A stretch of DNA of 64,000 nt from Zoogloea sp. (GTDB lineage Bacteria > Pseudomonadota > Gammaproteobacteria > Burkholderiales > Rhodocyclaceae). The translations under genes and the position numbers were made by a program. The notes under the pieces were generated by a model. That model worked only from the letters and a program-made list of their open reading frames with translations. It searched no databases and was not told where the DNA came from. Below, in pieces: positions 2,957 to 22,340 of the stretch. The stretch's first letter is position 1, and each line of letters starts with the position of its first letter. The stretch spans positions 744,001 through 808,000 of the forward strand of contig JADJBR010000007.1 of NCBI GenBank assembly GCA_016703645.1. The letters are read 5' to 3'.

Positions 2957-3421
2957 ATGCAACGACGTGACTTCCTGCAAGCCTTTGGTAGCGCCACGGC
3001 GCTCGCCCCCCTGGTCGTCGCCGGCCTCCTCAGCCCGACACGCGCTTTGGCGGTAAGCTTCAACCGCGCGGCCTTCGAGGCCAGGACGGCCGCGGATGCC
3101 CTGCGCCTGATCGGCGCTGCCGGCGCCGAAACCAGCCGCGACATCCAGCTCAAGGCACCAGAGGTGGCCGAGAACGGTGCCGCCGTCCCCATCGAGGTTG
3201 CCAGCAGCATCCCGGGCACGACACGGCTCTCTATTCTCATCGAGAAAAACCCCCTGCCCCTGGCCCTGCAATTCAATTTCGCAGCAGAAGCCACCGCCCG
3301 CTTCCAGGCCAAGCTGCGCATGGCGGAGAGCTCCCGCCTGCGCGTGGTGGCAACCGCGGGTGGCAAGCACTACACCGTGTTCCGCGAGGTGAAGGTCACT
3401 GTCGGCGGCTGCGGCGACTAA
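2957..3421 (+). CDS. soxY: Thiosulfate oxidation carrier protein SoxY
   Basis: SoxY is the periplasmic carrier whose C-terminal cysteine holds the sulfur substrate during Sox thiosulfate oxidation, working as a dimer with SoxZ. The protein has 154 residues, a twin-arginine-like leader (MQRRDFLQAFG then a hydrophobic stretch to about residue 32), and ends in VGGCGD. The usual tail is GGCGG; here the last residue is Asp, an uncommon variant, with the substrate-binding Cys retained at the third position from the end. It sits four bases after moaC and 14 bases before soxZ. No soxXABCD genes are in the window, so this is an isolated SoxYZ unit. Confidence 0.93.
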   Translation: MQRRDFLQAFGSATALAPLVVAGLLSPTRALAVSFNRAAFEARTAADALRLIGAAGAETSRDIQLKAPEVAENGAAVPIEVASSIPGTTRLSILIEKNPLPLALQFNFAAEATARFQAKLRMAESSRLRVVATAGGKHYTVFREVKVTVGGCGD

Positions 3422-3435
3422 AGGAAGCACACCCC

Positions 3436-3753
3436 ATGTCCGAACCCATCAAGATCCGCGCCACCGTCAAAGGGACCGAGGGCGAAGTCCGCGTACTCAT
3501 GCCCCACCCCATGGAGAGCGGGCAGCGGCGTGACCCGGCCGGGCAGGCCCTGCCGGCACACTTCATCACGTCCATCACCCTCAGTCTCAACGGCCGCCCC
3601 GTCATTGAGGGCGCACTGGGCACCGCAGTCTCCACCAACCCGCTGTTTGCCTTCCAGTTGCAGGGCGTCAAGGCCGGCGACAAGGTCAGCATTGCCTGGC
3701 TCGACAACAAGGGACAAAAGGGCAACGCCGAAGGGGCGTTCGCGGCGGGTTAA
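3436..3753 (+). CDS. soxZ: Thiosulfate oxidation carrier complex protein SoxZ
   Basis: A 105-residue immunoglobulin-like protein that pairs with SoxY and positions the swinging cysteine arm. Conserved landmarks include the start MSEPIKIRA, the MPHPMESG segment, PAHFI, and the late WxDNKG turn. There is no signal peptide, as expected, since SoxZ is co-exported with SoxY through the Tat pathway. A good ribosome site (AAGGAAG) precedes the ATG. The length is normal for the family. Confidence 0.95.
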   Translation: MSEPIKIRATVKGTEGEVRVLMPHPMESGQRRDPAGQALPAHFITSITLSLNGRPVIEGALGTAVSTNPLFAFQLQGVKAGDKVSIAWLDNKGQKGNAEGAFAAG

Positions 3754-3819
3754 GCAGGCCCCTGACAGCGCCCGTGGCGATGTAATGCGGGCGCGCAAGA
3801 CAGGGGCGCGCCACGGGGC

Positions 3820-3825
3820 TAGAAT
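3820..3825 (+). promoter_or_regulatory. Possible -10 element upstream of the CYTH-CHAD gene
   Basis: TAGAAT lies 60 bases before the chosen ATG in the gap after soxZ. No clear -35 element is seen. Confidence 0.3.
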
Positions 3826-3835
3826 CGGACGCAAT

Positions 3836-3854
3836 CACCGCCTTCCCGGCGGTG
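3836..3854 (+). other. Hairpin in the leader of the CYTH-CHAD gene
   Basis: CACCGCC and GGCGGTG flank a five-base loop, giving a perfect 7-bp GC-rich stem between the possible -10 and the start codon. No run of T follows, so it is not a terminator. It could stabilise the leader or limit translation. Confidence 0.4.
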
Positions 3855-3884
3855 GTCATGTCTCCACTTCCGCCGACGGCCCCC

Positions 3885-5390
3885 ATGAGCCACGAAATCG
3901 AACTCAAGCTCACCCTCCCGCAAAAGTCCCTCGCTGCCCTGCGCCGCCACCCGCTGATAGCGGACGCCCCTCGTGAAGGGCGCACCTGCACCCTCGAAAA
4001 CACCTATTTCGACACCCCGGAACTCGAACTGCGCGAACGCCGCATGGCCGTGCGCACCCGCAAGGCAGGCAGCCGATGGCTGCAAACCGTGAAATGCGCC
4101 GCCGAATCCACCGGCGGCCTGTCCTCACGCCCTGAATGGGAACAGCCCTTTGCCAATGGCAGCTTCGACTTCTCGGCCATTGACCGGGACGACGTGCGCA
4201 GCCGTCTCGAAAGCCTGCTGCCCCGCCTGGTGCCCGTTTTCACCACCCGTTTCAAGCGCGAGACCTGCGTTCTCTCCCCCCGCGAGGGTGTGCGCGTGCT
4301 GGCCATGATCGACAACGGCAGCATTGAGGCCAACGGCCAGTCACGCCCCCTGTGCGAATTGGAGCTCGAGCTTGTTGAAGGCGACCCCCGGGAGCTTTAT
4401 GCACTCGCGCTCCAGCTCGCCGAAAACCTGCCCCTCACCCCCGAGAACGTCAGCAAGGCCGAACGCGGCTACCGGCTGTTCTCCAACCACGCCCTGCGCC
4501 CCGCCAAGGCCCGCCCGTCGCGCCTGAGCGCCGAGCAGTCCCCGGTGGACGCCTTCCGCATCATCGGTTTCGACTGCCTGTCCCTGTGGCAAGCCAACGA
4601 ATCGGGCGCCCGGGAAAGCGACGATCCGGAATTCATCCACCAACTGCGTGTTGCCCTGCGCCGTCTGCGCTCGGCCCTGCGCCTGTTCGGCCCGGCCCTG
4701 CCGGCCGAGTTCGTGGAACGCTGGTCTGACGGGCTCAAGGAGGCCGCCGATGGACTCGGCGCCGCCCGGGACCTGGACGTGATGCTGGCCGAAGTGCTCA
4801 GCCCGGTGGCCGAATCCGGCCTCGCCGATGAAGCCACCCAACGCCTCATTGCCATGGCTGTCGACCGTCGCGACCGGGAAAAGACCGCCGCACGCGAGCA
4901 GCTACTGGCCGCCAGCCATGGTCGCCAGATGCTGGCCCTCGCCTCCGACCTCTACGCCCTGCAGAGCGACTCACTGGTCAAGTCCGCCAACCTCACCACC
5001 TTCGCCCGCCTCCAGCTCACCCAGCTACGCAAGCGCGCCCGCAAGCGCTATGGCGCGGCCGCCGACCTGCACCCCGACAAGCTCCACGAACTGCGCGTGT
5101 CCCTGAAGCGCCTCCGCTACGGCATCGAGTTTCTGCTGCCCCTGCTCCCCGAGAAAGCCACCGTGCGCTTCGCCAATGACATTGCCGACATCCAGGAGAC
5201 CCTCGGCTACCTCAATGACGAAGCGGTTGCCCGCACCCGTCTCAAGGCTTGGGCCGGAAAAGACCCGGAACTTCGCAGCGGCGCAGCCTTCGTCGCAGGC
5301 TGGCACGCCCCGCGGATAGCCCGCCTGCGCAGGAACATCCTGCCCGCACTTGAGCCGATCCTGTGGGGCAAGGCACCATGGCGGCGCTGA
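3885..5390 (+). CDS. Inorganic triphosphatase, CYTH-CHAD domain protein (YgiF-like)
   Basis: A 501-residue cytoplasmic protein with two domains. Residues about 1-200 form a CYTH triphosphate tunnel with the ExExK signature at residues 4-8 (EIELK) and alternating charged strands. Residues about 220-500 form a CHAD helical domain with conserved His/Arg-rich helices (IHQLRVALRRLR and later LHELRVSLKRLRYG), which in known members binds polyphosphate. E. coli YgiF hydrolyses tripolyphosphate. The ATG at 3885 is chosen over the upstream GTG at 3852 because family proteins begin right before the EIELK strand. It is followed by sixA, a frequent pairing. Confidence 0.9.
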   Translation: MSHEIELKLTLPQKSLAALRRHPLIADAPREGRTCTLENTYFDTPELELRERRMAVRTRKAGSRWLQTVKCAAESTGGLSSRPEWEQPFANGSFDFSAIDRDDVRSRLESLLPRLVPVFTTRFKRETCVLSPREGVRVLAMIDNGSIEANGQSRPLCELELELVEGDPRELYALALQLAENLPLTPENVSKAERGYRLFSNHALRPAKARPSRLSAEQSPVDAFRIIGFDCLSLWQANESGARESDDPEFIHQLRVALRRLRSALRLFGPALPAEFVERWSDGLKEAADGLGAARDLDVMLAEVLSPVAESGLADEATQRLIAMAVDRRDREKTAAREQLLAASHGRQMLALASDLYALQSDSLVKSANLTTFARLQLTQLRKRARKRYGAAADLHPDKLHELRVSLKRLRYGIEFLLPLLPEKATVRFANDIADIQETLGYLNDEAVARTRLKAWAGKDPELRSGAAFVAGWHAPRIARLRRNILPALEPILWGKAPWRR

Positions 5391-5464
5391 TGGATTCATC
5401 GGCCGGTAACATGCCGGCCTCAGACTCCCGGCCTCTTGATAAAAAGAACGAGGGGAGAAAGACA

Positions 5465-5917
5465 ATGGACCTACTGCTATGGCGCCACGCCGAAGCCGTG
5501 GACGGAATACCCGACAACACACGGGAACTGACAGAAAGGGGCTTGCGCCAGGCCCACAAGGTGGCGGAGTGGCTGGACAGCCGCCGACCCAAGAAACTCA
5601 GGGTACTCGTCAGCCCCACCACCCGCACCCGCCAGACGGCCAGCGCCTTCACCCAGAGCTTTGAAGTCGTACCCGCACTCGCCCCTGGAAACGACATCGC
5701 CGATATCCTCGGCGCCTGTGGTTGGCCTGACGGCGGCGGCGCGGTCCTCATCGTCGGCCATCAGCCCGAACTCGGCCGCCTCGCCTCCCTCCTCCTCTCC
5801 GGCCAGGAAGCCGACTGGACCATCAAGAAGGGCGCCCTGTGGTGGTTCTCCAACCGCGTCCGCGACGACGAAACCCAGACCGTGCTGCGGGCGGTGATGC
5901 CGGCTGATTTGGTTTAA
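5465..5917 (+). CDS. sixA: Phosphohistidine phosphatase SixA
   Basis: A 150-residue histidine phosphatase. The catalytic RHG-type motif appears as LLLWRHAEA near the N-terminus (His about residue 7), with supporting arginine in SPTTRTRQTA and the second catalytic His in VGHQPELGRLA. SixA dephosphorylates phosphohistidine on proteins such as the ArcB HPt domain or the nitrogen PTS protein NPr. The start at 5465 is preceded by a strong ribosome site (GAGGGGAGA) and places the motif at the very start, as in the family; the open frame continues upstream into the CYTH-CHAD gene without support. Confidence 0.9.
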   Translation: MDLLLWRHAEAVDGIPDNTRELTERGLRQAHKVAEWLDSRRPKKLRVLVSPTTRTRQTASAFTQSFEVVPALAPGNDIADILGACGWPDGGGAVLIVGHQPELGRLASLLLSGQEADWTIKKGALWWFSNRVRDDETQTVLRAVMPADLV

Positions 5918-6022
5918 AAGGGCTCGGGCACTCGCCGCGCTGACCACGCCCGGAAACGCTCGGCGTGAGCAAGACCCCGTGAGCGCTCGCCCAATCCCTG
6001 CCGTCGAATCGCTATTCGCACA

Positions 6023-9000
6023 TCAAACCCGCATCGCCCGATGCACTGCCGCAGTGCTGACCAAAAAATGGGGCAACAGGACAGGAAGAGCGTGGCCTCC
6101 AAGGCGTGAGTAAGCCCGCTTGCGTATCGGTTCGCCATCTGCGAACCGCATTGTGCCCACGCGCGGAGCCCACGCCTCGTCGTCAAGCAAGCTGCCGTTT
6201 GACGGGGCCTGTTTCGGCGGCTCCGGCAAAATCTCTGGTGGCCTGTCGGGGATTTCACTGTAGTCCGTTCCGGCACGGGGTCGCAACGATCTCGGCTCTT
6301 TCGGATCAAGCGAACCTTGGGGCACAGGCAGGGGCTTTCCGGGCTCCCGCTCGGCTGCGCTGGCCTTGCTCAGCGCCGCCGCCACCTCCTCGACACTGCC
6401 TTCCTGGCGGCGGACATCCGGCAGAATGTCGCCCATCGAGCGGATGGCAAAACGCCCCTGCGCATTGGTGGTGAGGGTGACGGCTCTGGCCACGATCCCC
6501 GGCCTACCCTCCAGGTTCGGCGCCAGATCCCGCAGGAAGCTGACGTATTGTTCGAGCGTCGGCCGATAGTGCCCGCTCTGGTTGGTGATTTCCACCAGCC
6601 GCCCCTGAGTGTCGAGCACGAACTCCCCTGCCATCGATACCGGCTCGCCCGCCAGGAAGCTGGAGTGATGGAACTTTCCAGCCCACGGTTCACCCGCATA
6701 GATACGCCCCTCGGCATCGACAACAAATATCGCCTTGCCACCGATGATCGGCGGTTCGCCCTGCCGATCACCCCGAACAAAGACCAGACGTCCACTTCTG
6801 TCCATGGCCACTTCAGCGTCGGCCCGCTCTTCCACGGTCAGATACTTCACTACCGAGTTCTTCCAGTTGCCCAGGGCCGTGCCGGCCGGATCGGTTTCCG
6901 CCATGTTGCGCTGAAACCAGTTCTCAAAGCCATCGACGTCTTCGCCAATATGCTGGGGCATCAGACGAGCCATCGGACGCCCTTGCCGATCCAGGGGTGC
7001 AGGGGCCAAGGTCTCCGACAGGCGGGTGAGCAATACCGCCTGATCGCTACGGTCGGTCATGGACTCGACACGCTGGATCGTGGCGTCGGTCAGGCGCCTG
7101 TCGTCCTCGGCGAAACCGACACGGGAAAAGCGGCTTATCTGCTGCCGGATGTGCGCGGGCGAATCAGGCATGCCCCGCGCCCAGTCGTAGTCAGGCAGAT
7201 GGCGCGGACGGCCTTCATCGCCGGAGTCGTCCGTGTCCGACATACTCGGTGATCTGGAGGCTCGCGGCGAACCTAGCCCATCCGAATAAGCATCACTCTC
7301 CCCGCCGCTGCGATCACGCGACGGGTCCGGATCGGCATAGCCGTCCGCCGCACGCACCACGCGTGCGCCTGTCGGCCCCGTGCGCCTGCCGGTCAAAGCC
7401 CCGACGTCTTCGCCCTCGCTCTCGCTGCCGGACAGGGAAGTGCTCCGCGACCGACGCAACTCAGGTACTTCCGCGTAGCCATTACCCGAAGACTTGTTGC
7501 GTATCACGGCGCCCTCGCCCCCAGGCACGTCTCCTCCCAAGGCCGGGTTCGACCCTCTGCGGCCATCAACTGAACGCAGGGAAAGGGGGTGTTCGCCATC
7601 AGAATCGCTTCCTGGCCGCGACTCCCGCCATCCGCGGCGAATATCAGGCACCTCTGCATAAGCCGAATTGGACGGCTTCCTCCGGACCTCCGCGCTCCCC
7701 TCCGCCAAACCCGTTGGCGCCGGAGCCAGCGGCTCGGTGCGGGCACCACCCCGACGCAGCGGGATTTCCTCCTCCTCACGGGGACGCGCCTTCGCGGGCC
7801 GCCCACCGCGATAACCGTCCGGCAAGGCCTTGTCTTCCCGCACACTTTCATAGACGTTCGAGGCCGGACGGGGCTGCCGCGCACGGGCTGGTGCCCGGAC
7901 TTCCGCCATGATATCGAGCACGTTTCTGACCCGTGCCGTAACCTCGGTCATGTCACCGGTGGCATGCGCCACCGTACCGTAGATATCGGTTCCGTCACCG
8001 GAGACCATCTGGCCCCGCTCATTGGTCGAAATATCCACGTGCTTGGCGGCAAAGCGCGGCGCCACGCCATGGACATTGACCAAGGTACTCACAAAGGCGA
8101 CGTACTGTTCGGTGGTCGGCCGATAGTGACCGCTCTTGTTGGTCATCTCGGTAATGACACCATTGCGGTTCAGGACGAGCTCGCCAGCCATGGAGACGGG
8201 CTCACCCGCCAGGAAGGAAGAATGATGGAAGGCGCCGACCTCCATTGCGCCGGCGTACATCCTTCCGTCCCCGTCCACGACGAACATCAGCGGCCCTCTG
8301 CCGTCCGGAGAGCGGCCTGCCCGCACCCCGTTCGCATAGACGAGCTTACCCGAGCGATCCACCTTGACCTCGTAAGCGCCGCGCTCGTCGGGCGTCAGAT
8401 ACTTCACCGACCGTGCCTGCCAGCCCTCCGGCCGCGCACTGCCCGGCGCCGAGGTCTTCTCGATATTGCGCTTGTACCAGCTATCGAAGCCAGGCAGATC
8501 CTCTCCGATGTACTGGGGCATGATCGGTGTCATCGGCACGCCATTCTTGTCCCGGGGCTGTGTTTCCATGGAACGGGAGAGCCGCCCGAGCAAAGCGGCG
8601 CGGGCTTCCCCGTCGGCCAAGCGGTCGATCCGGTCGATGTTGTCCCTTGCCATTTCCCGGTCTTCCGCACCAAATCCATTGCGCTGATGGCTTCGGCTCT
8701 TTTCGATCAGTGCGGCGGGCAGGGTGTCGCCAGCCGGAGCACCGTCATCGCGTGACGGCGCCCGGGGTCGAGCGCCTGTCGCTTCGTCGCCCAAACCGAC
8801 AGCCGCATTGCCCTGGGCCCGGGGAATGGGCACCGAAGCCTCAGCGCCTTCGCGAATGCCGACGTATGCGTCTTCGTTGCCCACCGCGGGGATGGCGCGA
8901 TGCTGGCCGACAAAGGCACGCATCGGTGGGCGATTTGAAGCGCCCTCCGCCGCCTGGCCCAGGACGTTAGGCGCGTTGCCATAGCTGTCCGCCGCGGGCT

Positions 9001-12000
9001 GCCGATCATCGCCAGGAGCGACCTGCACTTCCGATGCCGGTCGGATGCGGGATACCCCCTGCGACGCGGCGCGACTGCGCTCGAGATGCTCGCCTGCTTC
9101 GATGGCAGGTGCTGCGCGGTGGGCGTCCAGCAGATTGCGTGTGCGGTCGATAGACGAGTCGAAGCGGCCATTGATCGCATTGGTAGTAACCTGCACGTGA
9201 TAGGCGCCAACCCCTTCGAGATCCATGCCAGTGCCTGCAAGACGCTTCAGAAAGGCGTTGAACGCTGCCTCGCTGGGCCGATAGTGTCCACTCTGGCTGC
9301 TGATCTCGCTCAGTTTGCCATTGCGGAAAAGCAGCTCCCCGGCCATGGAAACGGGCTCCCCTCCGAGCAGACTACTATGGTGAATCACCTCGGGCCTGGA
9401 TTCGGTCGCATAGAGATTGCCATTGCGATCCACCACGAAGATCAGATGCCGATCCCCCAGGCTATTCCCGTTCGCATCGAGCAGGCGCCCGTCGGACATC
9501 ACCAGGCGGTTACGCATTCGATCTTCAGGGGAATCGAAATAGGAAATTGCCTTCCGCTCGTCCGGCTCCCGGCCCCTATCCTTGATGGCCTGCTTCAACC
9601 AGTTGTCCAGCCCGGGAACGTTCTCCCCCACGTACTTCGGCTGCAGGGGAATGATGTGATTGCCCTCATCATCTACACGGGGTCCGGCCAACGACTCCTG
9701 CAGACGCAGCATCAGATCACGAGCCACAGCGAGCTGCCGTCCACCCTCCCCCTCCGCCTGCTCCGCATACCGGGTGATGGATGCCACGTTGCTGCGGATG
9801 ACCGCGCGGTCCTTGTCCTCGCCGCTGTTGTCGTTACGGGCACGCAGGACGGGCTCCAATTCCGCGCCGATTTCGGCAGCCGATTTGCCGCTATCCAACG
9901 CTCGACGGTGCGCGGCTGATTGCTCACTGTGCCGAACGGCCGCGGCGACCATTTCTTCCGGATCGATGCGTGGGGCAGGCCGCGGCTGCAACGCGACCTC
10001 ATCCCCCATGGGCTGTCTTGCGAGGGGCGCGGCCACCCCTTCCCGATCATTCCCATCCGGAATGCGCGGGGGATTGCCCTCGGCGGGCGCCTCCGGTATC
10101 GACCTCACTGCCACGGCATTGCCTATCACCGTCGGGCGAAGGCGCCCCGCATCGTTGGCGTAAGTGTCTGCCACCGGATTGTGGGGAACACCGCGGTCCA
10201 TCGCATCGGATGCGGGGCGCCGCGGCACCCCATCGCCATCGGCAACAGGTGGGCGACCGATTGGCGCGTTTCCATAGTTTCCGTCCACTTGATTGCGCGG
10301 GTTGACGGGAGGCTCCTGCCGGACGCTGCCGGGAGCATTGCCGTAATCGGACCCGGGTTGCCGGGCCGGCATCGCCCCCGAATCGGCCATCGGCCCTTGC
10401 GGCCGTGCGCCCTGCGGATCCGCAACAGCGTCGCGACGCCTCGCATCCAGCGACGCGCTCAGCGGCGACGGCCGGTCGACTGACGGTTCCCCCATGCCCC
10501 GAAGCGGCAGAGCCGGTTCACTGAGACTACGAACAGGCGGGGACGGCATGTCCGGCGCACTGCGCCGCCCCAGCCCTTCGCCCTCGCCCACCCGAGGGGC
10601 ATTGGGGCGTGCCGGTAGCCCGTTGGAATCGCGCGCACCCGGAAGATCAACAGACGCCATACCGCGAACTTGCGGCGCGCCGCGCGGTGCAGCAACGCGG
10701 CCACCGCCATCATCGGCGATGGCGCGGTCTTCCACCCTGCGGCGGGACGGGCGAACGGGTGCCTCGCCTGGGGCGCCACGGCCCGGCGCCGCCGAATCAC
10801 CGGGCGCGGCACGCCGGGCGGGGGTACGGACGTTGGCCGAGTAAGTTCCTCCCTTGCCCTCATCCGAGCCCGCAATGCTGGACACGGTGCCCGCAACGCG
10901 GAACTGCTGATGGGACTCCTTGCTTCGTGTCTCGACCGCGCTGCTGATGGTGCTACCGACCGTCTTGAAGTCAGTCCCCTGGTTGGCCGCACCGACCAGC
11001 GTGGTATTGCCCCCGACACTGACATCCAGACCACCGCTGCCACCCGAGAAGCCGCTGGCCCGACCCACGGAGAGATTATCCTTCTTCGTCACCTCTCCGC
11101 TGGTGAAGGCACCCGTAGTGCCGACCTGATTGAGAGCCTGACCGCCCTTATCCTGCACCTTGTCGAAACTGCCCTGGCCTGCATTGCGCCCCTTCTTGGG
11201 CGCTTCAGTCTGTGCCATGCCCGCGTAGGCCGTCACCTTGGTCTTGTCCACCCGCTCCCTATCAACGCGGCTCTCCACCTTGAGATCGCCACCGATATCG
11301 GCTTTGACTCCGCCCCCGGCTTCCACGTTGGCACCAGCCAACGTGGCATTGCCTTTGACGTTCAAGGTGGTCCGCCCGGATGTGGTGATCGAGGCGTTGC
11401 TGTTCCTTTCGATGTCCTGCTTGCTGATATCGACCTTGACCTGGGCATCTGCACCGAAGGAGTTGCCGGAGCTGCCAGCCTGACCACCAGTATTGGCCAT
11501 CTGAGCGCCGCCCCCCTTGGAACCGCCCACATTGACAATGCCCGATACCCTCGATGAATCCTCCTTGACGGTACGACGCGCCGACTCGATGGTCAGATTG
11601 CCGCCCACAGTGACGTCAGCGGTGGCTGCCTTGACCTCGCTACCCTGCAGGCGTGCATCCCCCCCCGATTTGAGAGTGAAGGTGCCGCCGGCATTGACTC
11701 TCCCGCCAGTCTCCGTGCGCTCGCGGTAGTCGGTGCGGCCCCTGTCGAAATCGGCAGATACGTTGGCGCCCATGCTCTTGTTGCCGCCGGAAGCCCCATA
11801 CGAAACATCGACGCTGCCGCCACCGCCATCGATGCGCCCTGTCTTCTCCCGGGTGCTGACGGCCGCCTGATAGTCGATCTTGCCCTTGGCGTCGAGACCG
11901 ACATCGCCCTTGGCACCTATATTGGTGCCCTGCAAGGTCATGTCGCGTCCGGCAACGAGATCAACGTTGCCGCTGCCCGACTTGATGTTGCCGGCGATAC

Positions 12001-15000: not shown

Positions 15001-18000
15001 TCGTGTTGCCATAGTCGCCCCGCGTGGAACCGAAATAGGGACTTGCCGCGCCAAAGGAGGTGGGCGGTGCACTCATGCGGTTGTTGAAGTCGCCGTAAAG
15101 ACTCAGGAAGATGTCGTCGGTTTGGGACGACATTTCACCAAAGTTGTCCATCCGGGCAAGCGCTGTTCCGGCAATCCGGCCCACGGCGCGGATGGCAGCA
15201 CGCTGGCGGCCTTGATTTGCCGTCAGCCCCGGATCAACACCATTGACGACATAGCCGTAGCTGAAGAAGAGATTCAGGCCGAAGATGTCGCCGAGATTGA
15301 GCAGGGTGGGTGCGGCCGGCACGATGGGTGTATCACCCGCCTTGCTGGTCAGGAATAGGGAACCTCCGGTGCCGATGCCGGCACCTTCATGGTTGATGAG
15401 CCGCCCCGCCGATATCTCCGCCAGACTGCGCCCGGAATAAATCAGCCCATGGTTCTCGAGACTGTCCGCAGCCAGATCAAGCTTTCCGTTACCCCCCACA
15501 GCGTCATAGCTCAGGATGCGACCACCCGACTGATTCACCAGGTTCTGGGCGGAAAGGCTCGACAGGTGAGAGCTGACGTCCTGAACCAGCCCAAAGTTCG
15601 TGAGATCCCGCAGGACCAGGGAAAAATCACCCCCGAGGACTTGGCCGGTGGCTTGATTGAGGATATCGGCGGGCTGCGCCACCGATCCCAGGACCAGGGC
15701 ACTCACCCCGCCCAAGATTCCACTGTTGTCGACGCTGATGGGCAAGCCCGCACTGGACGACAGGGTGGTACGGCCTCCCGCGAAAAGGGTTCCCGCATTG
15801 TTGAGGTAACTGCGGGTTTCTATCTGGCCCTGGTGGAAAATGCCGGTCGCCGGCCCGAAACTCAGGGCCATGTCGGTACCGGATTGCACGGAGGCCTCCT
15901 GCTCCACCAGTAAGGGCCGGGGGGTACTTAGGGACAGGGCGTGACCGCTGTAAAGATCGACATTGCCAAGCTTTATCCAGTCCTGACTTTGCACGGAGAC
16001 GATGCCGCTGCCCAGCGCCCCGTAGATGCCAACCCGGTTGGCCGTCGACTGCCCGTTGGCCTGTTGCCCCAGGGAGATCATCGCCGCCGAGAGTGACAGA
16101 TCACCGTCGGCGACATATTGCCCTCCACCCAGGTGGAGATCGCCGCCTACCACGACGCTCAAAGTGCCGCCCGCGGTGCGGGTGGCCCACTCCCGGGTCA
16201 CGACCGTCGGTGGCGCGCACAGGCCGAAGTTGGGATCGCAGGTGCTCGTCTGGACGCTGACGAAATCACCGTTGTCGCTCAGGGCCGGTGCTGCGATGCG
16301 CAGATTGCGCCCAGCCTGAAGGCTGCCCACGCCCAGCACGGTCGGCGACATGAAATTGAAGTCGAGGTCACGGGCTGCACCGATCATTGGTGCCTCTACG
16401 GCGCCCGTAGCCCATCGCTGGGTGAGGCTGGTCAGCTGGGGAAAGTAGAGATCGCCCCTGGTGTGGATTTGTCCTTCGTTGACCACTGTCGGCACATTCA
16501 TTACCGTGCCGCCGGTGCTCGACGTCGTTCCCATGATGAAGGCATCCCTGCCCAGATTGCTCAACCGGTTAGCGACGATGTTGAAGCTGCTGCCCCCCTG
16601 CAGCACGCCGCCATCCCGGTTGACCACCTCGTTGGCGACGACGCTCACCGTCTCGCCGGCCATCAAACCCTGGTTGACGAGATCCAGGTTCCCGCCACCA
16701 GAGGCCACACTCAAACTGCCTCCGCTGATGATCGCCGCACCCGCGCGATTGGTGATACCCCCTGCGCTGGCGGAACGGAGCCCGACACCACCCTTTGCCT
16801 GGATCGTACCGGCATTGTCCACGGCGGAGGCAAAGCGCAAGCGCACGTCGCCATCGGTCACGACGGCACCCTGCGCGCCAAGGGCAATGTGCTCCCCCGC
16901 AAGATTGATCGCTCCCCTTGCCGACAGAGCACTGCCGCCGAGGCCAAGCACCCCGGAAGCGGTCATGTCGAGCATGGCCGCGGCGTCAGACGCATAGAAG
17001 GACGCCCCCCGCGAATCGAGGGTGTCAGCCAACAGTGAAAAGCTGCCACCGCCCCATACAGCCCGATCAAAGGTGGCTGAACCGGCCACCGTCACTGACG
17101 TCGCACCCGTTGCGAAGCGGGCGTCCGAAGCGCTGCCAATGTCCTCCAGGCTTCCGGCTTGGATGGCGAGCGCACCGCCCGCCGCCACGTTCCCTTTGCC
17201 TAAGAACACGCCGCCCGGCGTAACAATCTGGAGATCCCGCCCGGCATAGACCCACTTGGCGCTGGAATTCTGGTCAATGGCGATCTGCCCGCCGCTCAGG
17301 CGGATATCGCGGGCTGCGCTTGCCTGACCCGACACTTCGATCCTGCCGGACGCGGCGATCCTCAAGTCGTCTCCACTGGCACCGAGGTCACCGGCCGTGC
17401 GCACGCCGGTTCCTTGCTCCGTAGCGACGAGTCCGATCCGGTCCGCATAGATGCCCCCGAGCCTGCCAGTATCGATGACGAAGCCGGGTGCGGGGCCTGC
17501 CCCCGCGAGCGCCTGGGCACTGCGCGTAAGGTAGTCGAAGCGCTCCGCCCCACCGACGATCCCTAGATTGCCGAAGACCGCCCCGGACCCGGCACTCCCG
17601 GACGCAGCCGGACGGCCGACATTGATCTGCCCGTCCACCGCCACTGTGCGGGCAAGAATGTCGAAAGTGGATTGCCCGGTCGCGTCGAGCCCCCGCCCAC
17701 CGATCGTCACATCTCCACCCAGTACGGTAAAGCCATTCAGGCCGCCGCCCATCCAATCCGGCGTGCCAGCGACGATGCTGACCCGCGGCGTGTTCAGAAA
17801 TCCGCAACCGCTGCAGGTGATCCCGTTCGGATTGGCGATGACGACCTCGGCCGCCGGCCCGAGCACCTCGGTATAGCCGTTTAGCTGGGAGCGGTTGGAA
17901 GACACGACCTCATTCAGAATCAGGCCGGCGGCACTCCCGCCCAACTGACGGTTGGCAACGACCCCGCCCCCCAGAAGGGACACGGCATCGATCCTGCTGT

Positions 18001-19774
18001 TGTTGAGCACCAGGCCATTGCCATCAACGTTGAAATCCAGGAAGCGGTTGTGCGACACGCCTGCGCCGTTGGGCGCAGCAATATTGACAACCTTTGTTCC
18101 ATTGCCCGATAGGCTGATGCTCCCATCCCCGGTCGCCAGCGTGAGTTGAGCCGCCGTTGTACCGTGGTTGATCAGACTCAGCGCATCAATGGTCAGCGGG
18201 CTACCCGAAAGGCTCCCGTCATTGCGGACGCTGGCCAACTTGCCGCCAGCGGCGCCAATGCCCAGCGCGCCCTTGCTGACAAGCGCACCACTCTCCCGAT
18301 TGAGCAGAGTGGCCGCCGGGGAGGCCCCCATCAGGCGGAGAGGACCGTTGGCATGGATCAGCCCCGCGTTGTCGAGATTGCTGCCGAAGTCGGCCTGCAG
18401 TGTCTTGCCCGCGGCGATCACGCCTCTTTCGCCTAACATCAGACTCGCACCACCAATGCCCACATTGCCGTTGCCATAAACCTGGCTGTCGCGCAGCCAC
18501 AGGGCGCCACTCGATTGCAGCACCAGGCTCCCGGCCGCATCGTCGGCCTGGAAAGTTGCACCGTTCGCCTCGATGGAATTCGCCGAAAACTTCAGACTGG
18601 CGCCTCCCCACAGCGCATCGGCGAAAGCCATCGCTCCAGTCGTCTGCGCATCGACACCGGCCGCACCGACCCTCTGCCCGTCTGCCGTGCCCGTGTCCAG
18701 CAGCCTGAAAGCACGCAGCACAAGGTTTCCACGGGCATCCAGGCTTCCTCCGCCTAGCTGGACGTCACCCGAAGCCGTCAAGGCGATGTCGCGCCCGGCA
18801 TGCAACCACTTGCTGCTGTCGGCCAGGTCGATCATCAGGCTGCCGCCATTTGCGACGAGGTCTCGCTGGGCACTAAGGCCCGCACTCAATTCAATCCGGC
18901 CAGCGGCCGTGATGGTGAGGTCGGACCCGAGGGCCGCCATGTTGCCGGCAACGCGCACACCTGCCCCCTGCGCGTTGGCGATCAGGCGAATGCGATCGGC
19001 GTAGATGCCCCCCAATACGCTGCTGTCAATGAGAAATTCCGACGCACCAACTTGGCCGCTGCTGTTGACCGGCACCCCGGCGGTCCGTGACGCATATTCG
19101 AAATTCTGCTGACCGCCGACGATCAGCAGATCACCGACAGTACCCGTGGACGCATCACCGACGTTGATCTGGCCGTCAATGCGCACGCGCCGGGCAAGGA
19201 TGTCGAACGCAGTCTGACGCGAGGCGTCGAGCCCCTTTCCAGAAATCAGAATGTCGCCATCCCGAACGCTGAAGCCGACCAGCGCTCCACCAGCGGAGAA
19301 TCCCGGCGTTCCGGTACTGAGGGTGACGCGGGGGGTATTCACGAAGCCGCAGCCGTTACAGGTGATGCCGTTCGGATTGGCGACAACCACGTCGGCGGCC
19401 GCGCCAAGCACTTCCGTGTAACCGCTCAGTTGGGAGCGGCCGACACCGACAACCTCGTTGACGATCAGGTTCGCCATCCCGCCGCCCAGATTGGCATTGC
19501 CCGCGACAGTGCCACCCAGCCGGGCAGCACTATCGCGCTGCGCATTGTTCAGGATCAGCCCCGCGGACCCGACGTTGAATTGCTGGTACTGGTTGTGGGA
19601 AACACCCGCCGCATTGGGTGCGGCGATATTGACCACTGTCGTCCCCGCAGTCGACTGACCGGTCGTGGTGCGGCCATTGACCGGCGCGATCTGCGCCAGG
19701 CTCTGGAGCGGTATCAGGACAGCGAGGACGCAGGCGGTGATGCGGCGGGACAGGGAAAGGTCTGAACTGATCAT
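6023..19774 (-). CDS. Giant two-partner secretion exoprotein (TpsA, filamentous haemagglutinin-like) with three C-terminal IQM-like repeats
   Basis: A 4583-residue secreted protein in one unbroken frame. A signal peptide (about 1-28, ending SLAQ) leads into a TPS secretion domain with NPNGITCNGCGF near residue 135. A second TPS domain with NPNGITCSGCGF lies near residue 650, so the first ~516-residue module is tandemly duplicated. Long beta-helix repeats follow (residues about 1100-3000), rich in G-N-D turns. From about residue 3050 the protein becomes proline-, serine- and charge-rich, with three ~245-residue repeats of an IQM-like domain (motifs HHSSFLAGEPVSMAGE and SGHYRPT) separated by disordered linkers. 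These linkers hold evenly spaced tyrosine motifs and acidic serine clusters. There are five RGD tripeptides. No CdiA VENN motif or downstream immunity gene is present. It is exported by TpsB, whose gene lies directly upstream. It probably acts at the cell surface as an adhesin or effector; the activity is unknown. Confidence 0.93.
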   Translation of the reverse strand: MISSDLSLSRRITACVLAVLIPLQSLAQIAPVNGRTTTGQSTAGTTVVNIAAPNAAGVSHNQYQQFNVGSAGLILNNAQRDSAARLGGTVAGNANLGGGMANLIVNEVVGVGRSQLSGYTEVLGAAADVVVANPNGITCNGCGFVNTPRVTLSTGTPGFSAGGALVGFSVRDGDILISGKGLDASRQTAFDILARRVRIDGQINVGDASTGTVGDLLIVGGQQNFEYASRTAGVPVNSSGQVGASEFLIDSSVLGGIYADRIRLIANAQGAGVRVAGNMAALGSDLTITAAGRIELSAGLSAQRDLVANGGSLMIDLADSSKWLHAGRDIALTASGDVQLGGGSLDARGNLVLRAFRLLDTGTADGQRVGAAGVDAQTTGAMAFADALWGGASLKFSANSIEANGATFQADDAAGSLVLQSSGALWLRDSQVYGNGNVGIGGASLMLGERGVIAAGKTLQADFGSNLDNAGLIHANGPLRLMGASPAATLLNRESGALVSKGALGIGAAGGKLASVRNDGSLSGSPLTIDALSLINHGTTAAQLTLATGDGSISLSGNGTKVVNIAAPNGAGVSHNRFLDFNVDGNGLVLNNSRIDAVSLLGGGVVANRQLGGSAAGLILNEVVSSNRSQLNGYTEVLGPAAEVVIANPNGITCSGCGFLNTPRVSIVAGTPDWMGGGLNGFTVLGGDVTIGGRGLDATGQSTFDILARTVAVDGQINVGRPAASGSAGSGAVFGNLGIVGGAERFDYLTRSAQALAGAGPAPGFVIDTGRLGGIYADRIGLVATEQGTGVRTAGDLGASGDDLRIAASGRIEVSGQASAARDIRLSGGQIAIDQNSSAKWVYAGRDLQIVTPGGVFLGKGNVAAGGALAIQAGSLEDIGSASDARFATGATSVTVAGSATFDRAVWGGGSFSLLADTLDSRGASFYASDAAAMLDMTASGVLGLGGSALSARGAINLAGEHIALGAQGAVVTDGDVRLRFASAVDNAGTIQAKGGVGLRSASAGGITNRAGAAIISGGSLSVASGGGNLDLVNQGLMAGETVSVVANEVVNRDGGVLQGGSSFNIVANRLSNLGRDAFIMGTTSSTGGTVMNVPTVVNEGQIHTRGDLYFPQLTSLTQRWATGAVEAPMIGAARDLDFNFMSPTVLGVGSLQAGRNLRIAAPALSDNGDFVSVQTSTCDPNFGLCAPPTVVTREWATRTAGGTLSVVVGGDLHLGGGQYVADGDLSLSAAMISLGQQANGQSTANRVGIYGALGSGIVSVQSQDWIKLGNVDLYSGHALSLSTPRPLLVEQEASVQSGTDMALSFGPATGIFHQGQIETRSYLNNAGTLFAGGRTTLSSSAGLPISVDNSGILGGVSALVLGSVAQPADILNQATGQVLGGDFSLVLRDLTNFGLVQDVSSHLSSLSAQNLVNQSGGRILSYDAVGGNGKLDLAADSLENHGLIYSGRSLAEISAGRLINHEGAGIGTGGSLFLTSKAGDTPIVPAAPTLLNLGDIFGLNLFFSYGYVVNGVDPGLTANQGRQRAAIRAVGRIAGTALARMDNFGEMSSQTDDIFLSLYGDFNNRMSAPPTSFGAASPYFGSTRGDYGNTSDSGAKISYTKSGTSEDYYVWTVAVSTRAYQDVIQYFTQDEHFDFTPLAPNVFAGRDLVIRTQGNVNNIGGSLAASRDANITANQFTNQSLDLTRKTFKRLSTDKLSCFTFGPSGEKINDPGCTPKSIEQYDIASSGLNESTTLDSTTTLPAANSLRAVAFAGNSFTFNGNSFSNIGSATAPGTALPPAALQVAGPGAKSSPVVTINGSTSITVNGATVILPTTQNGQFVPVQNSRSRYLVETNPVFGLEAPTLGSDFLAGKLGLDPETLVKRLADANYENYLIQQQILAQTGASLLASAYDSYDMAQLLFTNAADAAKDFKLTYGKALTSEQVAALKEDIVWMVESEVQGQKVLVPVVYLSDATRQSIGSGAQVVSGNGINIDAGTIRNAGASISAGGLVNLKSRGDIENISGRISGSTVVLDARGNVVNRTLTAYRGDADNGRTEIGEIAAITAAKLLYAKAGKDISSQGGRLDSGGDLALDAAGKVNLESLVLENRRTFGRNGSENFSARTGQTALEQTVSARGNIVVRGGGDVNIVGASVRSDEGTTLLRSERGNVNIGVLELKSTQRSAESLNGVGSEGGADGRSRTIATVTGAEEQKSSREVRETTGYGSRVSGKGVVVTTGAGDVNVIGSDLRSGKDGTVIDSARDVNVTAYYDQRSDTRRDELHRQGIATDVNADGVHIGLREKGQIEETTVSSREARTSSLSSDGGVSISAGRTLTNEGTKIRAAGDIVLEAEDIINKAAHNEYATTTARTDYDLRQQAGLSANGSGQSISDAVDGRSKQVNIGTPEAQLRVKVDVTQSTDTTAQSNAVVTDLRAGGNIVVKARNTASDEGSRYDAQQNVVIDAAAYESRAAANTSASAHGDTQTSSTATGGVNLSAQATFNANSSGSSTQSSSTRSKAVVGNIKGGGAVRIRTDKDLTLEGTNVSGEKGVGLTAGGDLKLLQAQDSSDTRSATQSGDARVSVAVSLVGTSGSVGVGAHGREEESRDRQTTGIAGNIKSGSGNVDLVAGRDMTLQGTNIGAKGDVGLDAKGKIDYQAAVSTREKTGRIDGGGGSVDVSYGASGGNKSMGANVSADFDRGRTDYRERTETGGRVNAGGTFTLKSGGDARLQGSEVKAATADVTVGGNLTIESARRTVKEDSSRVSGIVNVGGSKGGGAQMANTGGQAGSSGNSFGADAQVKVDISKQDIERNSNASITTSGRTTLNVKGNATLAGANVEAGGGVKADIGGDLKVESRVDRERVDKTKVTAYAGMAQTEAPKKGRNAGQGSFDKVQDKGGQALNQVGTTGAFTSGEVTKKDNLSVGRASGFSGGSGGLDVSVGGNTTLVGAANQGTDFKTVGSTISSAVETRSKESHQQFRVAGTVSSIAGSDEGKGGTYSANVRTPARRAAPGDSAAPGRGAPGEAPVRPSRRRVEDRAIADDGGGRVAAPRGAPQVRGMASVDLPGARDSNGLPARPNAPRVGEGEGLGRRSAPDMPSPPVRSLSEPALPLRGMGEPSVDRPSPLSASLDARRRDAVADPQGARPQGPMADSGAMPARQPGSDYGNAPGSVRQEPPVNPRNQVDGNYGNAPIGRPPVADGDGVPRRPASDAMDRGVPHNPVADTYANDAGRLRPTVIGNAVAVRSIPEAPAEGNPPRIPDGNDREGVAAPLARQPMGDEVALQPRPAPRIDPEEMVAAAVRHSEQSAAHRRALDSGKSAAEIGAELEPVLRARNDNSGEDKDRAVIRSNVASITRYAEQAEGEGGRQLAVARDLMLRLQESLAGPRVDDEGNHIIPLQPKYVGENVPGLDNWLKQAIKDRGREPDERKAISYFDSPEDRMRNRLVMSDGRLLDANGNSLGDRHLIFVVDRNGNLYATESRPEVIHHSSLLGGEPVSMAGELLFRNGKLSEISSQSGHYRPSEAAFNAFLKRLAGTGMDLEGVGAYHVQVTTNAINGRFDSSIDRTRNLLDAHRAAPAIEAGEHLERSRAASQGVSRIRPASEVQVAPGDDRQPAADSYGNAPNVLGQAAEGASNRPPMRAFVGQHRAIPAVGNEDAYVGIREGAEASVPIPRAQGNAAVGLGDEATGARPRAPSRDDGAPAGDTLPAALIEKSRSHQRNGFGAEDREMARDNIDRIDRLADGEARAALLGRLSRSMETQPRDKNGVPMTPIMPQYIGEDLPGFDSWYKRNIEKTSAPGSARPEGWQARSVKYLTPDERGAYEVKVDRSGKLVYANGVRAGRSPDGRGPLMFVVDGDGRMYAGAMEVGAFHHSSFLAGEPVSMAGELVLNRNGVITEMTNKSGHYRPTTEQYVAFVSTLVNVHGVAPRFAAKHVDISTNERGQMVSGDGTDIYGTVAHATGDMTEVTARVRNVLDIMAEVRAPARARQPRPASNVYESVREDKALPDGYRGGRPAKARPREEEEIPLRRGGARTEPLAPAPTGLAEGSAEVRRKPSNSAYAEVPDIRRGWRESRPGSDSDGEHPLSLRSVDGRRGSNPALGGDVPGGEGAVIRNKSSGNGYAEVPELRRSRSTSLSGSESEGEDVGALTGRRTGPTGARVVRAADGYADPDPSRDRSGGESDAYSDGLGSPRASRSPSMSDTDDSGDEGRPRHLPDYDWARGMPDSPAHIRQQISRFSRVGFAEDDRRLTDATIQRVESMTDRSDQAVLLTRLSETLAPAPLDRQGRPMARLMPQHIGEDVDGFENWFQRNMAETDPAGTALGNWKNSVVKYLTVEERADAEVAMDRSGRLVFVRGDRQGEPPIIGGKAIFVVDAEGRIYAGEPWAGKFHHSSFLAGEPVSMAGEFVLDTQGRLVEITNQSGHYRPTLEQYVSFLRDLAPNLEGRPGIVARAVTLTTNAQGRFAIRSMGDILPDVRRQEGSVEEVAAALSKASAAEREPGKPLPVPQGSLDPKEPRSLRPRAGTDYSEIPDRPPEILPEPPKQAPSNGSLLDDEAWAPRVGTMRFADGEPIRKRAYSRLGGHALPVLLPHFLVSTAAVHRAMRV
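6365..7134 (-). repeat. IQM-like domain repeat C of TpsA
   Basis: Third copy: GFAEDDRRLTDAT, MPQHIGEDVDGFENW, VKYLTVEERADAEV, IFVVDAEGRIYAG, FHHSSFLAGEPVSMAGE, SGHYRPTLEQYVSF. Copies B and C are the closest pair. One RGD tripeptide (VRGDRQ) lies inside this copy. Confidence 0.78.
7905..8694 (-). repeat. IQM-like domain repeat B of TpsA
   Basis: Second copy: GFGAEDREMARDN lead-in, MPQYIGEDLPGFDSW, VKYLTPDERGAYEV, LMFVVDGDGRMYAG, FHHSSFLAGEPVSMAGE, SGHYRPTTEQYVAF. It aligns end to end with repeats A and C. Confidence 0.78.
9116..9845 (-). repeat. IQM-like domain repeat A of TpsA
   Basis: First of three ~245-residue domains. Ordered landmarks are a helical lead-in, PQ/PKYVGE near PGLDNW, LIFVVDRNGNLYA, HHSSLLGGEPVSMAGEL, then SGHYRPSEAAFNAF. 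It is the most diverged of the three copies. Confidence 0.75.
16550..18099 (-). repeat. TPS module copy 2 in tpsA
   Basis: Second copy, with VVNIAAPNGAGVSHN, NPNGITCSGCGF, LGGIYADRI, KWVYAGRD and AVWGGGSF in the same order and spacing. Protein similarity is clear but the DNA has diverged, so the duplication is not recent. Confidence 0.8.
18100..19648 (-). repeat. TPS module copy 1 in tpsA
   Basis: First copy of a ~516-residue module: TPS domain beginning VVNIAAPNAAGVSHN, then NPNGITCNGCGF, LGGIYADRI, KWLHAGRD and ALWGGASL. Each landmark recurs about 1548 bases later in copy 2 at a constant offset. Confidence 0.8.
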
Positions 19775-19798: not shown

Positions 19799-21539
19799 TC
19801 AAAAGGGCAGGACCAGCCTGACCGAGAACAGATGGTCTTTGGAGGACGTCTTGTCGTCGGACTTGAGGTAGCCTCTCGAAAAAAAGGTCTGGAGGCTGGC
19901 CGCCCCCAGCGTCGCGGAGCAGCCCAAGGTCATGCCCCACGCGCGTCCACCGGGCACACTGTGTTTATTGATGACAGAGCCGAAATCGAGGCCCACATGT
20001 GGCCTGAATGAAACCGGCATCGCCCCCAGACGCCCCGTCATCGGAAGACCGATCTCGTTACGCCAGTAGTAGCCACTGTCGCCGGCCAGGCTGGCGCGCG
20101 TGAAACCCCGCACGGCGTAGGGCCCGGTCACCAGAATCTGCTCACCGGGGAACAGCACTTCAGCCGCATGCTGCGCGTTGAGCGAGCTGGACCAATTGAA
20201 ATCGCGCCCACCCAGCCGGTCGCTGCCAAACACACCCAGGCCAAACTTGAACTTGGTGAACTCCGCGCGAGGAGCCGAGTCGGCGCTGTGCGCCGGATCC
20301 GACATTCCTCCAAGCACCGGCACGCCTCGGGAGACGCCGGCATCAAGGCTGATCAGCCGGCCGTCGCTGACCCGGCTCAGGTTAACGTCCAGGTCCAGAA
20401 CACTTAGGACGCGACTGCTGGTGGCAATCAGCAGATCAGCGATGTAATTATGATTCTCCTTGCGTGCCAGCGTGGCCGACACGGTGAGCTTGTCGGATTG
20501 ATCCCGATATGCAACCCGATCCAGCCTGAACAGGGCCGTCTGACTGTCTCCCTTGCTGACAAAGGATGTCACCTGCCCTCGCACCAGGGTTCGATAGGAA
20601 AAGTCGGTGTAACTCAGGGTTCCCAGCCAGTACCCATAGGGCACGGACACACTGAAGCCGTCGGAGCGACTCATCTTGCTGCCGCGATCTTCTCCGATGC
20701 TTTGCCTGTGGGACAGACTCAGACCGTCATTGATGCCGACCAGATCGTCAAGACCGAGGCTGACTGATCCCTGGTAACGACCGGTCGCCTCGGACCCGCT
20801 ATTGTCGAGGGAGGCGTATCCCGACCAGCGCTTCCTCGCCTCGTTGTTGACCACCACGATCGAATCGCCCGGGGAACTACCCGGGCGGATGTCGATCCGT
20901 GCCGAATTAGAAGAAAGCCGATTGATCTGGTCGATGCCCTGCTCGAAATCCCGCAGGTTCAAGATGGCCCCCGGTCAGCCCCGGAAACGCCGTAGCCGCG
21001 GAAGCGCTGCCCGGAGGCTGGACATCGATCCTTGCAACCAGCCCTTCCAGGACCACTATCCTCAGCACACCCTCGGCAACATCCTGGGGTGGAACGTACG
21101 CCCGGGTGGTAATGTAGCCCCGAGCGGCATACAGATTGGTGAGCTTGGCAAGAACGCCATTGATCATCGTGGACGTGACGCACTTGCCGACGACCGCTTG
21201 GCGCACGTCGGCAAGCTCGGCTTCCGAGAGACGGGTTGCGCCTGTCAACATCAACGAACCTACGTCCACGCAGCGGGAGTCCCTTTGGTCCTCGTCCCCG
21301 GAGGGAGGAATCAACATCGGCGCTTCGCCGCCGGGACGCTGGCGTTTCAACGCCTCGCTCCCGCGGCGCTGACGTTCGTATTGTTCCTGCTCGCGCAGTA
21401 TCCGGGCTCCCTCCTGGATCGCCTGGTTGACGTCGCCCGGCAGTGGCACCTGAGCTTGTCCGGCCAACGGCATGGCCAGCACAGACGTGACAAGACATGC
21501 ACCGCATACCACCTTGACATGTTGCGATGATTCAGTCAT
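19799..21539 (-). pseudogene. TpsB outer-membrane transporter (FhaC/ShlB/HecB family), interrupted by a one-base frameshift
   Basis: TpsB is an Omp85-type beta-barrel that exports its TpsA partner. The N-terminal part (start ATG 21539, ribosome site AGGAAG, signal peptide to about residue 31) carries the POTRA region with CVDVGSLMLTGATRLSE and ends in the wrong frame after PGLTGG. The remaining POTRA2 and barrel continue in the next frame from about 20968, with the VRGF motif (AVRGFTRASLAGDSGYYWRN) and a terminal phenylalanine (RLVLPF). Removing one C from the C5 run at 20968-20972 joins the two into one 579-residue protein of normal family length. As read, the gene is broken. A sequencing error, a slippery tract and a true mutation all remain possible. 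It is the first gene of the tpsB-tpsA operon, and tpsA starts 24 bases after its stop. Confidence 0.88.
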
Positions 21540-21674
21540 GAGGGCTTCCTGATTGGGTCCGATGCTAAGCGGCGGCAAGACAGACCCTCGCCTGAGGGAG
21601 CCCGCGGTGAATGTCCGTCCGGACGAAATGCCGGAGAATCCAAGGCGATGCTAGTCGCACGGCACTGCACCCCA

Positions 21675-21696: not shown

Positions 21697-21730
21697 TATG
21701 CCGTCTACCTGGGCGGGAGAATCACTGCCA

Positions 21731-22339
21731 ATGACAAACTGCTCGCTGCTGTTCATCGACGACCACCCGCTTTTCCGCCAAGGTCTGGTCTTTGCGCTTG
21801 GTGCAGCAATCCCGGATATGGCGATTCGTGATGTCGGATCGCTGGAAGAAGCACTGGGCGTACTTGATCGTCACGAGATCGATCTTGTCCTGTCGGATTA
21901 CCGCCTCGAGATGGGTGATGGCATTGACGCCATTCGACGGATCAGGCTGAAGTTTCCGAGCATTGCCTGCGGCATCCTGTGCGCGGACATCACCCCGCAG
22001 CTCTCCCGGCAGGCCCGTGAATGCGGTGCCGTGGCTTTGCTGTCAAAGAACCGGGATGTACCGTCTCTCGTTGAAGCAATCACTATCGTCTTTGACGGGG
22101 GCTGTGTTTTCGATGATCTTCCAGACCACCTCCACCTTGGCGATGTCCGGCTCTCGGATCGACGATTGGAGATCCTCCGCCTCGCAGCCTATGGAAACTC
22201 GAACAAAGAAATCGCCCGGCAACTGAACGTCACAGAGCGCACAATCAAGGATCACTGGTCGCAAATACTGGCCCAGCTATCGGCATCCAACCGGACTCAA
22301 GCCGTTTCCCTGGCCCTGCAATACGGACTGATCGAGTAA
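21731..22339 (+). CDS. LuxR/NarL-family response regulator
   Basis: A 202-residue two-domain regulator. The receiver (1-120) has the acidic pair DD at 10-11, the phosphoacceptor Asp at residue 56 (LVLSDYRLEMGDG) and the conserved Lys in LLSKNRD. The C-terminal LuxR helix-turn-helix (about 135-198) shows LRLAAYGNSNKEIARQLNVT and ERTIKDHW. The ATG at 21731 is used because it starts right before the first strand and has GGGAG upstream. The next gene, a hybrid kinase, starts one base after its stop, so the two are co-expressed. It lies divergent from tpsBA across a palindromic site and probably controls that locus. Confidence 0.88.
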   Translation: MTNCSLLFIDDHPLFRQGLVFALGAAIPDMAIRDVGSLEEALGVLDRHEIDLVLSDYRLEMGDGIDAIRRIRLKFPSIACGILCADITPQLSRQARECGAVALLSKNRDVPSLVEAITIVFDGGCVFDDLPDHLHLGDVRLSDRRLEILRLAAYGNSNKEIARQLNVTERTIKDHWSQILAQLSASNRTQAVSLALQYGLIE

Positions 22340-22340
22340 A

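Follow-up and report, generated by a model that had tools for sequence, protein, structure and literature searches.

The 64,000-nucleotide stretch of DNA analysed here (the window; Zoogloea sp., family Rhodocyclaceae, assembly GCA_016703645.1, contig JADJBR010000007.1, positions 744,001 to 808,000) carries a two-partner secretion (TPS) locus whose exoprotein, TpsA, is a giant of the filamentous haemagglutinin (FHA) type. Its N-terminus bears the TPS secretion domain (PF05860, E 7.9e-85, in two stretches), and TPS and filamentous haemagglutinin (FilH) repeats are the only Pfam domains above cut-off in the whole protein. Near the C-terminus lie three diverged copies of one domain, A, B and C (Table 1), which are a real and well-kept feature of TpsA and with which the present analysis is chiefly concerned.

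Each repeat consists of a core domain of about 150-170 residues and an N-terminal extension that is common to all three copies. Over the long repeat, B and C are 37% and 30% identical to A in the alignment; over the core, A and C are 38% and 51% identical to B. A profile built from 98 relatives, without the window's own rows and without L087, a close relative, matched all three copies at E <= 3.3e-32 (E-values for a single-sequence database). Elsewhere in TpsA it picked out two stretches, at E 0.061 and 0.4, and the controls gave E 0.053 (the best of 200 shuffles) and E 1.0 (TpsA reversed). The first-pass annotation of this DNA had described three tandem repeats at 6365-9845 together with a set of core blocks, and that description holds up well: the aligned stretches with their extensions span 6335-9967, and every repeat has the blocks FVVD (at TpsA residues 3446, 3831 and 4350), HHSS[FL]L (3465, 3850 and 4369) and SGHYRP (3495, 3881 and 4400). 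At the DNA level, a degenerate pattern for FHHSSFLAG matched copies B and C in the window, with a shuffle expectation of 0; copy A, which differs at three of the nine residues, gave no match.

Table 1. Features of the TPS locus, with positions in the window
Feature	Positions	Strand	TpsA residues	Evidence
EDA39C domain A	9182-9667	minus	3370-3531; His 3466, 3497	independent profile envelope, E 1.2e-33
EDA39C domain B	8021-8539	minus	3746-3918; His 3851, 3883	independent profile envelope, E 3.2e-34; AlphaFold pLDDT 80.8
EDA39C domain C	6464-6922	minus	4285-4437; His 4370, 4402	independent profile envelope, E 3.3e-32
Repeat A with N-terminal extension (aligned stretch)	9095-9967	minus		alignment A1
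Repeat B with N-terminal extension (aligned stretch)	7880-8737	minus		alignment A1
Repeat C with N-terminal extension (aligned stretch)	6335-7189	minus		alignment A1
Linker A-B, with YGNAP and YVGI tyrosines	8678-9139	minus	3546-3699	tyrosine listing
Linker B-C, low complexity, with YESV, YAEVP, YAEVP, YADP	7133-7984	minus	3931-4214	tyrosine listing, motif search, flank test
TpsA, FHA-type exoprotein, 4583 aa	6023-19774	minus		single open frame; Pfam TPS (2 stretches), Fil_haemagg_2 (5 stretches)
First TPS secretion domain	18887-19693	minus		PF05860
Second TPS secretion domain (duplication)	17333-18139	minus		PF05860
TpsB C-terminal part: end of POTRA_3 and ShlB barrel, own frame	19799-20962	minus		Pfam
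TpsB N-terminal part: POTRA_2, different frame	20907-21578	minus		Pfam

The Pfam match by which the annotation had proposed to check the repeats did not appear, no model of Pfam or NCBIfam scoring above cut-off, and a profile search of the PDB gave no clear fold match (best E 1.1, unrelated). The AlphaFold models of repeat B and of a Nocardia member (pLDDT 95.0) are alpha+beta. A structural match to the EDA39C model was seen in BFVD entry G8DGH9, an unnamed viral protein of 351 aa (E 1.1e-4).

To judge from their sequence, the repeats very probably belong to a published family, Tox-EDA39C. Zhang et al. (2012; PMC3482391) described it as an alpha+beta domain with the motif 'H, Sx[HS]Y' and two conserved histidines, predicted it to be a metal-independent, RNase A-like RNase, and placed it in toxins of type II, V, VI and VII secretion systems (T2SS, T5SS, T6SS, T7SS) and, in plants, at the C-terminal end of EDA39. 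This signature is present in 100 of the 100 rows of our alignment A5, repeats A-C included, and the invariant positions of these aligned domains comprise the two histidines, a serine following the first of them, a tyrosine following the second and five others. The relatives had been retrieved by their HHSS and FVxD blocks, which overstates how well HHSS is conserved; the SGHY block played no part in the retrieval.

The annotation had also likened the repeats to the plant IQM proteins and called the domain eukaryote-like. The relation to IQM is supported, although by a published chain of identities rather than by a sequence comparison of our own: EDA39 is AT4G33050 (PMC9795773), and AT4G33050 is IQM1, described as a calmodulin-binding partner of catalase in plants (PMC9795235). 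The resemblance is therefore a known relation viewed from the opposite side. The label does not survive, because the domain occurs widely among bacterial toxins, and eukaryotes, as Zhang et al. suggested, might owe it to bacterial endosymbionts (PMC3482391); the repeat is thus a bacterial toxin domain shared by plants. The IQM family has been termed plant-specific (PMC9853202). In the literature searched, the term EDA39C occurred in PMC3482391 alone among the matches listed, and no paper was found that combines at least three of the four subjects IQM, calmodulin binding, polymorphic toxins and bacterial homologs. In TpsA itself no IQ motif, strict or relaxed, occurs among all 4583 residues, and nothing points to calmodulin. 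Tying plant IQM to Tox-EDA39C makes an RNase-like, two-histidine active site in IQM a directly testable question.

The other carriers of the domain were gathered in one scan of 84,980 bacterial and archaeal species, which gave 238 candidates and 131 relatives; the best 80 were kept and represent 78 distinct loci. A stop codon lies within the locus for 96 frames; in 84 of these no more than 10 residues separate the domain from the C-terminus, in 8 there are 11-50 and in 4 there are more. The N-terminal scan, which covered 76 stretches, none longer than 380 aa (some frames extend beyond the locus), gave matches to WXG100_2 (17), T7SS_signal (3), PAAR (2) and WXG100 (2) and, among others, single matches to RHS, TcdB_toxin_midN, eCIS_core and TssD. 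These layouts are polymorphic-toxin and effector architectures, with C-terminal payloads and parts of type VII, type VI, Rhs and extracellular contractile injection (eCIS) systems. Plasmid records added four further relatives, among them a Nocardia protein encoded behind two WXG100 genes and an Eleftheria terrae protein with EDA39C as its end. A Pseudanabaena protein (L088:5152-6411) has two EDA39C domains and an N-terminus that, judged by eye, is of the eCIS type.

Two families of open reading frames (ORFs) found next to the domain, here called families I and II, are a more general find than the arrangement in TpsA. The ORF chosen right after the domain belonged to family I in 45 of 90 cases and to family II in 10 of 90 (55 of 90 together), and where the domain stands at the very end of its frame, family I or II followed in 52 of 79. 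Neither family has a consistent Pfam match. On the basis of their position, small size and phyletic spread, we propose that families I and II are putative immunity proteins of EDA39C toxins, and as such they would allow the toxin claim to be tested simply, by neutralisation. The partner named in print for Tox-EDA39C is Imm-SuFu (PMC3482391). The genome G390, from the same order as the window, has two EDA39C frames with a small family II-like ORF behind each (L097:1950-2336 and L101:1950-2306); neither ORF had gone into the family II profile, which matched them at E 5e-7 and 1.9e-6 (for a database size of 100). There are 14 fusions of a family I ORF with another EDA39C domain (Nocardia; L023, L024, L027, L028, L030 and others).

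Neither family was found in the window, and profile searches of the window's genome returned one chance match, at E 0.42; an extended family II profile had no match in that genome, and SUFU was not found there. In control genomes, which had themselves contributed rows to the profiles, the family I and family II profiles matched in 3 of 3 each at E <= 1.2e-22. Both families were also missing from L087 and from the locus stretch of G152, a genome of another genus of the same bacterial family. The annotation's statement that no CDI-type (contact-dependent growth inhibition) toxin or immunity gene is present therefore stands for immunity, as regards the families definable here, and falls for the toxin, the repeat itself being a toxin-type domain. 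Neither family I nor family II was present in 27 of 84 loci (a count in which L006 lies within L014), and other partner families may therefore exist.

The domain is sporadic, with 2 of 296 genomes of the family (own genome included, three chance matches removed) and 5 of 399 genomes of the order (E <= 1e-8, own genome included) carrying it. In G152 the TpsA frame has 3403 codons, with one domain near the end and 91 residues after it, and the TpsB frame is unbroken (557 aa). The close relative L087 is a contig of 3838 bases that is 94% identical to TpsA residues 3220-4497 (1278 residues) and has the same three domains; it bears the label of a Verrucomicrobiota metagenome-assembled genome, which is probably a binning error. 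Comparison with L087 by the Nei-Gojobori method, on this one sequence pair and with small counts, gave dN/dS values of 0.02, 0.10 and 0.13 for domains A, B and C, and of 0.36 and 0.56 for the linkers. Domains A-C are strongly constrained and under purifying selection. In the tree, A, B and C and their L087 copies form one clade (support 0.984) in which B and C are grouped (support 0.902), arguing that a single domain was acquired, was duplicated within the gene and was kept in each of its copies.

On balance we lean towards the view that TpsA is a TPS exoprotein that carries three EDA39C effector domains in tandem, lacks a recognised immunity partner and probably acts on cells other than kin, perhaps eukaryotic ones. 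TpsA would be exported by a TpsB and displayed as a filament whose C-terminal third consists of three Tox-EDA39C domains on disordered-looking linkers, and these domains, probably RNase-type and metal-independent, would be presented or delivered to non-kin cells, most likely eukaryotic. With non-kin cells as the target, no immunity protein would be needed. Zhang et al. took the absence of immunity genes in the case of Ntox43 to indicate eukaryotic hosts (PMC3482391), and the same argument would apply to TpsA. The chances that TpsA is an active effector aimed at non-kin cells seem about even; the annotation's preference for an effector role over plain adhesion was, in our judgement, right.

Several points weigh against this reading. 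The RNase role of EDA39C in print is itself a prediction from sequence; the tandem, non-terminal placement of the repeats is unlike that in most other carriers; and an element for delivery into eukaryotic cells was not recognised. The loci with neither partner family mean that the immunity protein of TpsA could belong to another family. Finally, TpsB adjoins TpsA but reads as two overlapping frames (19799-21578, Pfam), so that secretion of TpsA itself is not assured.

If an immunity protein were encoded at an unlinked site, or belonged to a family that we have not modelled, TpsA could be an antibacterial, CDI-like exoprotein. Its TPS domain and FilH repeats are the scaffold of CdiA, in other bacteria the domain is found in typical polymorphic toxins that have a partner gene behind them, and the 27 loci just referred to leave room for partners of other kinds. 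We nevertheless regard such a role as unlikely in view of the surroundings and plan of the gene. The next recognisable gene, His_Phos_1 (5363-5917, plus strand), is convergent with TpsA and lies 105 bases from its stop (6023), and the minus-strand frame on the 3' side of TpsA (5477-5947, 156 aa) is mostly antisense to the His_Phos_1 gene and has no match to Pfam or to family I or II. Families I, II and SUFU, as described above, were not found in the genome; TpsA has no VENN string, and it lacks further Pfam domains above cut-off beside TPS and FilH; and three copies of the domain, none of them at the extreme end, depart from the CdiA-CT plan.

A similarly low probability attaches to the idea that the repeats are binding modules of an adhesin whose enzyme function has been lost, as the plant IQM proteins, which are studied as interaction partners, might suggest. 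None of the three copies has lost any of the invariant residues, the two histidines among them, and evolution is slower in the domains than in the linkers, even though the internal, repeated placement resembles that of adhesin modules, IQM1 is described as a partner of catalase, and we know of no enzyme activity. That the locus is decaying and TpsA is not exported, as the two overlapping TpsB frames might be taken to mean, is very improbable, for TpsA is open across 4583 codons with its domains under purifying selection, a sequencing or assembly error and a real frame change look alike in TpsB, and a second TPS locus of the genome has an unbroken TpsB of 573 aa.

For an effector acting on eukaryotic cells, the linkers between the domains may hold a further clue. 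Tyrosine is their foremost aromatic residue (16 Y, 3 F and 3 W in 876 residues between domains; 48 Y, 75 F and 11 W in TpsA residues 1-2960), and its contexts recur: YGNAP three times and YAEVP twice, with YESV and YSEI. The mutual likeness of these contexts was reached in 0 of 300 shuffles. The same test on L, S, D, G, R and E revealed no such effect, R coming closest (31/300); in G152 the tyrosine effect is weaker (6/300), and arginine likewise shows an effect. The canonical EPIYA motif, EP[IVL]Y[AG], does not occur in TpsA. The linker tyrosines may be taken as a lead towards host tyrosine kinases, and as nothing beyond a lead. A wider proposal, which we offer tentatively and with some doubt, is that TpsA and its relative in G152 represent a so far unrecognised kind of environmental TPS effector with eukaryotic cells as targets, combining RNase-type EDA39C domains without immunity genes and disordered linkers with repeated tyrosine motifs that host kinases could read, much like IbpA and LspA2 though with another enzyme, and that EDA39C toxins have families I and II as their chief immunity partners. 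A TPS giant that bears three EDA39C domains but no recognised immunity gene is a candidate for linking interbacterial toxins with eukaryote-aimed effectors.

Other features of the locus and genome may be noted briefly. Two complete TPS secretion domains stand at the N-terminus of TpsA, as against one in the TpsA of G152; one such domain per exoprotein is usual. Directly upstream of TpsB and divergent from it, at 21698-24086, are a LuxR-type response regulator and a hybrid sensor kinase, which we take to be a possible BvgAS-like control pair. The second TPS locus (G000 contig C10, about 11.5-16 kb) has, beside its unbroken TpsB frame, two frames with a TPS domain (2855 and 681 aa).

Compared with the Tox-EDA39C toxins in print, TpsA has in common the two histidines with SxHY, the alpha+beta structure, overlapping secretion contexts that include T5SS, and the connection to plant EDA39/IQM1 (PMC3482391). 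It differs in its three tandem copies, none at the extreme C-terminus, and in the lack of a recognised immunity gene, and the published partner Imm-SuFu contrasts with the two other neighbour families described here (PMC3482391). CdiA likewise has a TPS domain, FilH repeats and a toxin-type domain in its C-terminal part, but TpsA has neither the VENN string or other pretoxin junction nor the single terminal toxin, and profiles of families I, II and SUFU recognised no immunity gene directly downstream, an unmodelled family being possible. The plant IQM proteins have a related domain, by way of EDA39, in an intracellular plant protein, whereas TpsA would be a secreted bacterial filament and has no IQ motif.

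IbpA of Histophilus somni has direct repeats near its C-terminus. It is an FhaB homologue whose DR1/Fic and DR2/Fic repeats act on host Rho GTPases (PMC5486823, PMC4747540), and its secretion determinants were not yet known as of PMC3339403. The likeness to TpsA is that of an FHA-type exoprotein with direct repeats, each with a host-acting cytotoxic motif in IbpA (PMC4747540, PMC5486823, PMC3339403); the difference is that IbpA has two Fic AMPylation copies and TpsA three EDA39C copies. LspA1 and LspA2 of Haemophilus ducreyi are also TpsA giants (PMC3593179, PMC5422565), and LspA2, in which a segment of 319 residues occurs three times in tandem at the C-terminal end, is tyrosine-phosphorylated in host cells (PMC3593179). 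The LspA segment carries EPVYA motifs, whereas TpsA is without the canonical EPIYA and what is repeated in it is a folded domain. IbpA and LspA2 are thus precedents for the view that FHA-type giants can bear repeated host-acting segments, and TpsA is a new arrangement of an already known toxin domain.

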